In this document: positions 1-8,471 of the stretch, one piece after another
Position numbering within the stretch: the stretch's first letter is position 1
Layout of the letters: each line of letters begins with the position of its first letter
NCBI GenBank assembly: GCA_001045525.1
Contig: LDWW01000013.1
Coordinates: forward strand, 1 to 64,000
Length of the DNA stretch: 64,000 bases
DNA from: Chitinispirillum alkaliphilum
GTDB taxonomy: Bacteria; Fibrobacterota; Chitinivibrionia; Chitinivibrionales; Chitinispirillaceae
Reading direction: 5' to 3'
Translations under genes and position numbers: made by a program
Notes under the pieces: model-generated
What the model saw: only the letters and a program-made list of their open reading frames with translations
Told to the model about the DNA's origin: nothing
The model's database searches: none

Positions 1-53
1 GAAAAAAAATGAACATCTGTTTTGCTCTGCACTTTAATACAAATGATTTTGTG

Positions 54-467
54 CTAATTAACTGATGGTATTTCCGGCAGATCCAAATCATCGGTTGAGT
101 TTATCTCTCTTATTCTTTGCTGAATCTCCCTGAGTTCCTCAACCTTGGTGTTGAATCTTTCCCGAACTACTTCTGTCTGAGCCGCGATTTCCACATTATG
201 CCCGGTAAGCACCTCTATGGCCTTTGCAAGTTCAGCCTCGGCAGTAACACGTTTCGATTCCAGAAGAGCAGACTGCTGTTGCTCTGGAAGGAGCTGGAAA
301 TACTCCTCAACTTCAGCCTGAGCTCTTTCGATATGGGGAGCAGCCTGCTCCATCGCTGCTGCCAGTCTCTCCTCCATCATACTCCTTGCACTTTCCATAT
401 CGGTTGCATCCTGAGCCATCACAACAGAAAACACTCCGGCTATAAGAATTGTGGCAAACCTTTTCAT
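54..467 (-). CDS. Small secreted coiled-coil protein, array copy 1
   Basis: This encodes a 137-residue exported protein of unknown function. Residues 1-18 are a signal peptide (MKRF start, hydrophobic core, VMAQ cleavage region). The mature part is almost all charged helix, rich in Glu, Ala, Gln and Arg with heptad-like spacing, and ends in an acidic, Pro-containing tail (DLDLPEIPSV). The start has an AGGAGG ribosome site directly upstream. It differs from copy 2 at only a few residues (for example Met for Thr at 30, Thr for Ala near 74, Asn for Asp at the end). Its 3' side lacks the terminator found in the other copies because the leader of a fourth copy follows directly. A periplasmic helical protein, perhaps Skp- or Spy-like in shape, is possible, but no family is recognised. 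Confidence 0.85.
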   Translation of the reverse strand: MKRFATILIAGVFSVVMAQDATDMESARSMMEERLAAAMEQAAPHIERAQAEVEEYFQLLPEQQQSALLESKRVTAEAELAKAIEVLTGHNVEIAAQTEVVRERFNTKVEELREIQQRIREINSTDDLDLPEIPSVN

Positions 468-527
468 AAAACCCTCCTTTTAAGTGAAAAAAAGATGAAC
501 ATCTGTTTTGCTCTGCACTTTAATACA

Positions 528-543
528 AACAACCATTGTGCCA
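528..543 (-). promoter_or_regulatory. Sigma-54-like promoter of array copy 1
   Basis: Read on the minus strand this is TGGCACA-ATGG-TTGTT, matching the -24 TGGCAC and -12 TTG spacing of sigma-54 promoters (consensus TGGCACG-N4-TTGCA) with GC changed to GT at the -12 element. The expected transcript start is near 517, giving a leader of about 50 nt. The same arrangement recurs before copies 2 and 3. Confidence 0.6.
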
Positions 544-610
544 AACAACATATCTTCTTTTATGATAACCCCTTACGCTTTTTCGTCGTTAACTTTAGCA
601 AGAGCCGCTG

Positions 611-628
611 TGGGGTTGAACAACCCCA
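611..628. promoter_or_regulatory. Perfect GGGGTTG dyad, candidate enhancer site, copy 1
   Basis: TGGGGTTG-AA-CAACCCCA is a perfect inverted repeat with 8-base arms, lying about 70 bp upstream of the -24 element. A weaker relative, TGGGGTTG-TTT-CACCCC, lies at 693-709, about 150 bp upstream. This position fits binding sites for a sigma-54 activator. The assignment is inference. Confidence 0.5.
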
Positions 629-907
629 TCAAAATACACCGTATATGCGTAAACACCTCCTAACCCTTTGATACACAAAAAATTATGCCTTGTGGGGTTG
701 TTTCACCCCTGCTGTGTACATTCAACCCTTAAGCCTGCAGGACACATAAACAGTTTTAAAACAGCTACTTATTGGTATTTTCAATTATGATTGATTTGCA
801 CCCGTGAATTGATGTCCGGCTTATCAGGAAGAGAACTCCCGGGCTTCACACCTGTCGTATATACCTGGCCAGGGCAGCGGGAGATTCAAAAACTGTCATG
901 GAAGTAA

Positions 908-941
908 CAAAAAAGGGGGAAAGCTTGATTGCCTCCCCCTG
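908..941 (-). terminator. Intrinsic terminator of array copy 2
   Basis: On the minus strand the arms GGGGGA (939-934) and TCCCCC (920-915) form a stem that is followed by a T-run (914-909). It lies about 25 bp after the stop codon of the gene at 966-1379. Confidence 0.8.
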
Positions 942-965
942 AGTGTATTTTCTGCTGATTTTGTG

Positions 966-2672: not shown

Positions 2673-2834
2673 ATGCAGGTAACATGGAAAGCCGTCAAAG
2701 CATATGATGAATATGGCAGATATGTATTATGGGAAGGTGTGCAGGCACATCGTTTCTCAAGAAGCCGTTTTGTTCTTGAAAAAAGATCACGCGATATTAA
2801 TGATTTGGTCAGAATGGCTTACGAAGAAAAATAA
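2673..2834 (+). CDS. Small hypothetical protein, 53 residues
   Basis: This short frame starts with ATG, has GGAG nine bases upstream, and ends at TAA 17 bp before the end of the convergent nitrilase gene. The product is basic and aromatic (starts MQVTWKAVKAYDEYGRYVLW; later an RFSRSRF stretch) and ends in EEK. It has no signal peptide or membrane segment. The amino-acid make-up looks like a real protein, more so than the longer overlapping frame in the same place. Family not recognised; it could be a short regulator or a remnant. Confidence 0.5.
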   Translation: MQVTWKAVKAYDEYGRYVLWEGVQAHRFSRSRFVLEKRSRDINDLVRMAYEEK

Positions 2835-6500: not shown

Positions 6501-6857
6501 ATGGCAGGAAAACCTCTTACTCAGGCACAGATCATTCAGAAAATTTCTGAATCGGAAGGCTTAACAAAAGCACAGACCAAGTCTTTCTTCAACAGTTTAT
6601 CAGCTCTTGCTTACAAAGAGGCGAAAAATGGCTTTACATTACCCGGACTTGGAAAATTGGTACTGGTTAAAAGAAGTGCCAGAACCGGCCGTAATCCTGC
6701 AACCGGTGAAGCTATTAAGATCCCTGCCAAAAAGGTGGTTAAATTCCGTGTGGCAAAAGCGGCAAAAGATGCAATCACACCACCAAAGGCTGCTGCCCCT
6801 GCAAAAAAAGCCAAAAAGGTTACTAAAAAAGCAAAGAAGGCTGCAAAAAAGAAATAA
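6501..6857 (+). CDS. HU-family DNA-binding protein with Lys/Ala-rich tail
   Basis: This is a 118-residue nucleoid protein. Residues 1-90 are an HU/IHF fold with the helical start (QAQIIQKISESEGLTKAQTKSF), the beta-arm region with GRNPATGE (conserved arm-tip Pro) and the closing strand KKVVKFRVAKAAKDA. The last ~25 residues are almost only Lys, Ala and Pro (APAKKAKK repeats), like the tail of histone H1 or of actinobacterial and bdellovibrio HU proteins. AAGGAG precedes the ATG. It is monocistronic, with its own terminator. The tail should add non-specific DNA compaction; that part is inference. Confidence 0.9.
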   Translation: MAGKPLTQAQIIQKISESEGLTKAQTKSFFNSLSALAYKEAKNGFTLPGLGKLVLVKRSARTGRNPATGEAIKIPAKKVVKFRVAKAAKDAITPPKAAAPAKKAKKVTKKAKKAAKKK

Positions 6858-7070: not shown

Positions 7071-8471
7071 ATGAAACCATTACTCATAGTACTATTTTTG
7101 ATTTCAGTCTCACACTCACTTGAACACACCGAATTACACTCATTAGTCTCAGGATCACCACTATTTACCGGAAGAGATAACTACAATGTTTACGATGTAG
7201 CCGGATCCCCCCTGGGTCATTTTCAAAAAGGAATAACACGGCTTTCCCTGAGCTCCTCCTTCGATCGTTTGGGCTGGAATCAGGGGATAGATTCTGATTT
7301 GGAGGGAAACTGGTTTTCTGCCCCTCTTCTCAGAGCAGGCGAGCCACAAACCGCATTCTTTGAGCTGTTCTATCACCCAGCAGTTATGAGCGTCCAAAAC
7401 TCCGTTACATCAGAAAAACTCAGGCTCCCCCTTCACCGTTTCGGCCTGACACTTGGAGGAAAATCCCGTTCCGATGTTATTCAGGTTTCGCTCACAGCTA
7501 CAGGGTTTTACGGAAAACAATCTATGGCTCTCTCTGATAATGAGCGGATAAAAATGGGCCTTGACCTGATAAGAATCGATTTGGCAACCCGAATTCATGA
7601 GCTTGCAAGCCTGGGGTTTCACATTGGTGGGGATGCACAAATTGACACACTCTTCGGCAGTACCGGTTATGCAGACCGCTGGTTTAAAGGCCATGCTCCG
7701 GCGCTTGGAGCATATATTGACTTCGGAAATGAAGATTTCCCGCTCAGAAGCATCGCTGCATTTGACTACTCCATAAGCAGATTTTTATATGTCTCACCCC
7801 TTGGAGACAATGACGCCATAAGGAACGATTCAATCGCGTTTAGATGGCAAACAACAGGGGACATAAATGCAGCAGATTTTCTGTTTGAACCGGCATTTCT
7901 CTTTGGTATATCAAACAACAGAACAAAACTTTTTTACCCTACAGAAAGCAATGACAACCCCTTTAACTTAGGTACCGAAAGGGGCTTTAACTGGAATGAA
8001 ATGAAAACGCAGATCGGGTTTGGGACATCGGTGGGTCTGAAAGAGTATGTCACACTTTGGGGAGAATACTTATTTACCGGCAGAGTTTTAAAACCCGGAG
8101 AGAATTTTTTAACAGAAGATATGAATCGTTCAGCTCACCTTGTAAACATCGGTATCAGAACCGATATACATAACTACGCACTGCAGCTTAAAGATTCACG
8201 TCTTTCACCAAGAATCGGGTTCTTTTTCCAGGACAGCCACTCAAACAACCCTTTCCCCCACCCTTTTACTTCATCTAATCAGTTCTGGAGATACAATCCG
8301 GATTTAACATTCTCGGTTTATCAGAAAACAAGCGGGTTTCTATTGGGTCTTGAGGGCTCTGCTGGTGAACACTTCATTTACGACATGTATCTGTCTTTTC
8401 TAAACAGGGATTCAGAAGATATTTCCCGAAGCGGAACAGGGTTTGGCTTAAAAGTGGGCCTTGAGCTTTAA
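7071..8471 (+). CDS. Predicted outer-membrane beta-barrel protein
   Basis: This encodes a 466-residue exported protein. Residues 1-16 are a signal peptide (MKPLLIVLFLISVSHS). The mature part is made of alternating amphipathic strands with aromatic residues, typical of a barrel, and ends in GFGLKVGLEL (terminal hydrophobic residue). The ATG at 7071 is chosen because of AAAGGA upstream and the signal peptide; the frame is open further upstream without these. It ends only 4 bp from the convergent rpoD stop. No specific porin or transporter family is recognised, and no partner gene is near. Confidence 0.65.
   Translation: MKPLLIVLFLISVSHSLEHTELHSLVSGSPLFTGRDNYNVYDVAGSPLGHFQKGITRLSLSSSFDRLGWNQGIDSDLEGNWFSAPLLRAGEPQTAFFELFYHPAVMSVQNSVTSEKLRLPLHRFGLTLGGKSRSDVIQVSLTATGFYGKQSMALSDNERIKMGLDLIRIDLATRIHELASLGFHIGGDAQIDTLFGSTGYADRWFKGHAPALGAYIDFGNEDFPLRSIAAFDYSISRFLYVSPLGDNDAIRNDSIAFRWQTTGDINAADFLFEPAFLFGISNNRTKLFYPTESNDNPFNLGTERGFNWNEMKTQIGFGTSVGLKEYVTLWGEYLFTGRVLKPGENFLTEDMNRSAHLVNIGIRTDIHNYALQLKDSRLSPRIGFFFQDSHSNNPFPHPFTSSNQFWRYNPDLTFSVYQKTSGFLLGLEGSAGEHFIYDMYLSFLNRDSEDISRSGTGFGLKVGLEL

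Follow-up and report, generated by a model that had tools for sequence, protein, structure and literature searches.

One of the three spacers in a tandem array of genes for small secreted proteins of Chitinispirillum alkaliphilum has lost most of its sequence, including a -24/-12 (sigma-54 type) promoter, two dyads and a terminator that both sister spacers retain. The window, by which we mean the whole stretch of 64,000 nucleotides that was analysed, starts at base 1 of contig C13; copies 1 to 3 of the array lie in it on the minus strand, and copy 4 is found at the end of another contig, C30. Taking the explanation as a whole, we consider it about 80% probable that unequal crossing-over built the array, that a spacer deletion followed, that the array is under sigma-54 control and that copy 4 is served by read-through from copy 1.

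The junction and the fourth copy

The leader of copy 4 (5′ UTR region, minus strand) occupies window 1–43, where it is cut by the contig end. As the earlier note had it, this stretch is array leader: by sequence match it corresponds to window 486–529 at copy 1 and 1398–1441 at copy 2, with one base lost. Right after the leader comes a gene end and not a promoter, as TAATACAAA is followed at the junction (43..44) by TGATTTTGTG, which equals window 956–965 on the gene 3′ side of the spacer between copies 1 and 2; ten nucleotides remain 3′ of the copy 1 stop codon (44–53, minus). Comparison with that spacer shows that the missing stretch runs from the copy 4 leader to 10 nt beyond the copy 1 stop, its intact counterpart in the alignment being 426 bp at window 530–955. 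The copy 2/3 spacer (1442–1866, 425 bp) is 97.4% alike to this counterpart. In joined coordinates the stop-to-start gap between copies 1 and 4 is 71 nt, while the other two gaps measure 498 and 497 nt. Against these two intact sister spacers, the copy 4 promoter, its dyads and the copy 1 terminator are absent at the junction, which bears out what had been claimed from the letters alone. Junction and intact copy 1/2 spacer have no common bases at the break, for which reason a microhomology-driven deletion was rejected. A terminator or strong RNA fold formed at the junction was likewise discarded, none being found there (z-score 0.30).

When the whole assembly (4,434,773 bp, 160 contigs) was searched, five places matched window 1–600. 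The end of C30 (40,405 bp) carries at C30:40290–40405 the same bases as window 1–116 with 100% identity, junction included, and this exact 116-base overlap of the two contig ends was verified by script. In addition, window 106–529 matches C30:39910–40332 at 98%, far beyond chance. Directly left of the junction lies copy 4 (C30:39852–40271, i.e. 7853–8272 of locus L006; minus), an intact gene for 139 aa, whose protein is of the array type at its N terminus and differs in its C-terminal tail. A related gene left of the window, on which the earlier note had staked its reading, is thus present. Since contig C13 begins at window base 1, the adjacency of copies 4 and 1 rests on the 116-base overlap. 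Among the 44 readable ends of 22 contigs that were compared, C13 and C30 form the only pair with an exact end overlap of at least 18 bases, and an assembler k-mer overlap as the origin of the common 116 bases was rejected on this ground. Forty contigs of 212–685 bp are read as N, so that a further piece of the array could hide there.

Mosaic copies and the origin of the junction

Copies 1 (window 54–467), 2 (966–1379) and 3 (1877–2290) are all on the minus strand, and the first two each encode 137 aa. The array protein has no Pfam match up to the cut-off; its structural model (mean pLDDT 74, pTM 0.37) shows a signal-peptide-like start followed by two long helices, as in a secreted helical protein. 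Copies 1 and 2 are 98.15% alike, and each is a mosaic with a copy 4-like 5′ part and a copy 3-like 3′ end. The copy 3 protein is 90% identical to that of copy 2, the 5′ half of the gene and its promoter region being different. In an alignment that spans leader and gene, 52 of the 53 copy 3-specific sites fall in columns 1–260 and 33 of the 36 copy 4-specific sites in columns 431–514. A single switch point fits 87 of these 89 sites, compared to 67 in the best of 10,000 shuffles; the count leaves out gapped columns, one three-way site and 10 variable sites of other patterns (four private to copy 2, four ungapped ones private to copy 1 and two that group copy 3 with copy 4 and copy 1 with copy 2).

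Unequal crossing-over between diverged tandem genes gives rise to hybrid middle copies and to a repeated spacer. Here the inner copies combine the outer ones with one switch point, and judged by their sites copies 1 and 2 are hybrids such as unequal crossing-over between copy 4 and copy 3 would produce. Given this mosaic structure, all spacers would go back to a single ancestral one, and a later deletion is the simplest reading of the junction. On its two sides stand a leader of copy 4 type and a gene end of copy 3 type, the outer edges of one spacer, so that a single internal deletion would suffice. The earlier note had attributed the loss to one event: the removal of the sites stands, whereas the single event is deduced from the mosaic pattern and is the simplest reading but not the sole one. 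The comparison with intact spacers that it proposed between strains was made with the sister spacers of the array and with single-copy relatives.

We thus propose the following history. Two diverged neighbours, the present copies 4 and 3, would have undergone unequal crossing-over in this lineage, resulting in a tandem array of four copies, of which 1 and 2 are hybrids with a repeated spacer between them. Later, one non-homologous deletion would have cut ~426 bp out of the spacer between copies 1 and 4. One of its ends would lie immediately upstream of the copy 4 leader and the other 10 nt beyond the copy 1 stop, so that the -24/-12 promoter of copy 4, the two activator dyads and the terminator of copy 1 were lost with it. 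Copy 4 would since be reached by read-through only, as the second gene of an operon that ends at its own terminator.

The junction has the form of the end of one unit joined to the start of the next, and might therefore have been left by a short tandem duplication that comprised a gene together with a leader and would have yielded a promoterless copy at once; copy 4 would afterwards have acquired its different 3′ end by recombining with the gene that formerly stood on the left. The lack of microhomology suits a duplication and a deletion alike. Yet a duplication predicts a copy 1-like 3′ end in copy 4, and of the 36 sites in columns 431–514 that vary and are free of gaps, 33 set copy 4 apart from copies 1 to 3, with indels in addition; as this end differs from those of copies 1 to 3, at least two events would be needed, and we regard this origin as unlikely. 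The junction also lies at two contig ends of a short-read draft with near-identical units, where an assembly or chimeric-read artefact inside repeats may be suspected. According to its genome report (PMC4814513), strain ACht6-1 was sequenced with 454 reads averaging 554 bp and assembled with GS De Novo Assembler 2.6 (Newbler). A mean read of this length is shorter than the 912-bp unit, so that the count and order of the hybrid units could be wrong, but one 454 read easily spans 116 bases. Moreover, repeat-driven misjoins happen inside homology, and the two sides of the break have none, while the identical 116 bases, with place-private bases at window 54, 59 and 87, occur on two separate contigs. 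An artefact is hence very improbable, and we retain the deletion as the preferred reading of the junction.

Promoters, terminators and the predicted operon

Promoters were sought with a -24/-12 score that is our own weighting, specific to this analysis, of the sigma-54 consensus. By this motif score, the minus-strand -24/-12 promoters of copies 1, 2 and 3 lie at window 528–544, 1440–1456 and 2363–2379. Copies 1 and 2 have the site TTGGCACAATGGTTGTT, with its first base at 544 and 1456, respectively, the last two bases of which fall in the part that is kept at the junction. These two sites score 13.8 and that of copy 3 scores 14.2, whereas the best score in the copy 1/copy 4 gap is 8.0; scores of at least 13.8 occur in the background at ~7 per 100,000 positions. 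Twelve family copies from six genomes were compared, namely the four described here, one each in G001 and G002 and two each in G006, G009 and G017. In 11 of them a -24/-12 site scoring 13.2–14.2 is located 66–89 nt before the start, copy 4 being the sole copy of the 12 without a strong site (best score 8.0, at the junction). On the gene strand (minus), neither a promoter nor a terminator match is found in window 1–120 or in L006 8273–8406.

The bases specific to copy 1, at window 54, 59 and 87, are clustered, none lying more than 45 nt from the junction. Through the first of them, at 54, the stop is TAG instead of TAA and the heptamer TTAGCAC (window 51–57, minus) arises, which resembles a -24 element but is out of register by one base, lying that much nearer to the leader than the -24 of copies 1 and 2. 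This heptamer, which derives in part from the copy 1-private base, was considered as part of a rebuilt promoter and rejected as a working one, having no correctly spaced -12 (score 7.5); scores of 9.8 and 11.8 are reached only with 2 or 3 extra spacing bases.

The terminator search found an intrinsic terminator (hairpin plus T, minus strand) for copy 2 at window 916–939 and for copy 3 at 1827–1850, and copy 4 has its own at L006 7816–7788. Copies 1 and 4 are on the same strand with a gap of 71 nt that holds no terminator or promoter, and on these grounds we infer that they form a two-gene operon, co-transcribed from the copy 1 promoter. Copy 4 keeps the ribosome-binding site AAGGAGGG before its ATG and an intact frame, and is therefore most likely expressed via read-through; the copy 1 promoter now probably serves both genes. 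In the leader of copy 4, a weak hairpin (centroid −3.6 kcal/mol) precedes a run of eight U, which might lower the read-through. This leader, along with the lack of any promoter match in the 71-nt gap, would also suit a deletion that is real but left copy 4 silent, served by neither read-through nor a new promoter. However, the copy 1 terminator is lost while frame and ribosome-binding site are preserved, so that a silent copy 4 appears improbable and co-transcription with copy 1 is preferred.

Two dyads of the form GGGGT-N6-ACCCC, candidate activator sites, are present in each intact spacer. Pattern search places those of the copy 1 unit at window 612–627 (-160 from the copy 1 start) and 694–709 (-242), and those of the copy 2 unit at 1524–1539 and 1606–1621. 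Of nine exact occurrences in the genome, five belong to the array locus; a reversed control pattern has 67, which indicates a concentration at this locus and no genome-wide over-representation. Around the two dyads on C2 and those on C14 and C25 (loci of ~3 kb), no -24/-12 match of at least 13.2 is found nearby, the only matches being more than 1.2 kb off.

Downstream of the array and on the same strand follow, in this order, genes for a second small secreted protein, two further proteins of 256 and 526 aa, a TPR protein, a Ser/Thr kinase and a regulator, the latter a sigma-54 activator (L006 826–2613) by domain matches to FHA, GAF, Sigma54_activat and HTH_8. With an activator gene linked to repeated dyads upstream of the promoters, the locus resembles the regulon of an enhancer-binding protein, in which the FHA-GAF-AAA+ activator would bind the dyads and drive the array through sigma-54. 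That the deletion was kept because it puts more genes under each activator-controlled promoter, couples the diverged copy 4, whose C-terminus is its own, to a hybrid copy at a fixed ratio and removes two sites competing for scarce activator is an idea to which we give little credence.

Several features of the neighbourhood deserve mention in their own right. The second small secreted helical protein (L006 7026–7415) has its own -24/-12 site and dyad, and its product bears a weak, sub-threshold Pfam likeness to Metal_resist (E 0.016). The kinase gene adjoins the activator gene (together L006 826–3990), with side-by-side homologues in G009 and G017, and the two may possibly constitute a kinase-to-enhancer-binding-protein signalling pair. 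An exact 122-bp direct repeat flanks the module at window 2706–2827 and C30:32601–32722 (L006 602–723), ~10.4 kb apart when joined; the C30 copy forms the 3′ end of a gene whose 231-aa product has no Pfam match, the window copy is a fragment, and no further occurrence is found among the readable contigs. At window 6501–6857, an HU-like DNA-binding protein is encoded that, by eye, has a lysine/alanine-rich histone H1-like tail.

Relatives and known systems

Array gene matches are found in six of 60 genomes including that of the window, i.e. in five of the 59 others. The same-genus genome G001 has one copy, with promoter and the same neighbourhood, so that the amplification would be recent on the scale of the genus. 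Similar to the array locus, this relative, taken to be Chitinispirillum sp. CSBr16_98 (L095/L023), has the second small secreted protein, the TPR protein and a -24/-12 promoter; the MAG JAAYEB010000261 (L097/L027) shares these neighbours and promoter and has the Ser/Thr kinase and the FHA-GAF-sigma-54 activator in addition. Unlike the window, both carry a single copy, without array or fusion. Homologues of the regulator, kinase, TPR protein and 526-aa protein occur in L027 and L028 in the relative order of the array locus. In L027, the array homologue is followed downstream, after 90 nt, by a second small gene, whose best -24/-12 score in 300 nt is 10.6; without a strong site of its own, this gene suggests that promoter sharing by neighbours here may not be unique.

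The literature search found no published description of the array locus, which draws attention to a sigma-54-type array of small secreted proteins beside a kinase/FHA-activator module in chitin-degrading Fibrobacterota. As in textbook unequal crossing-over, the middle copies are a mosaic of the outer ones and the spacers are repeated, but one of the three spacers has been lost afterwards. The birth of operons through deletion of intergenic sequence is said to be treated in ‘The Life-Cycle of Operons’ (PLoS Genet 2006). In general operon birth, as here, separately promoted neighbours become co-directional genes with a short gap after the intervening sequence is lost; here, in contrast, the genes are recent tandem copies, and the lost spacer can therefore be read from two sister spacers. 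Haloarchaeal operon-like structures also show short-term intergenic gain and loss between co-directional genes, yet they concern archaea and unrelated, non-duplicate genes without sigma-54 promoters (PMC7760734). Operon formation via intergenic loss is already known, and the array locus is a clean new example of it, unusually readable in that the sister spacers display what was lost (promoter, two activator sites and terminator) and the relatives the single-copy start.
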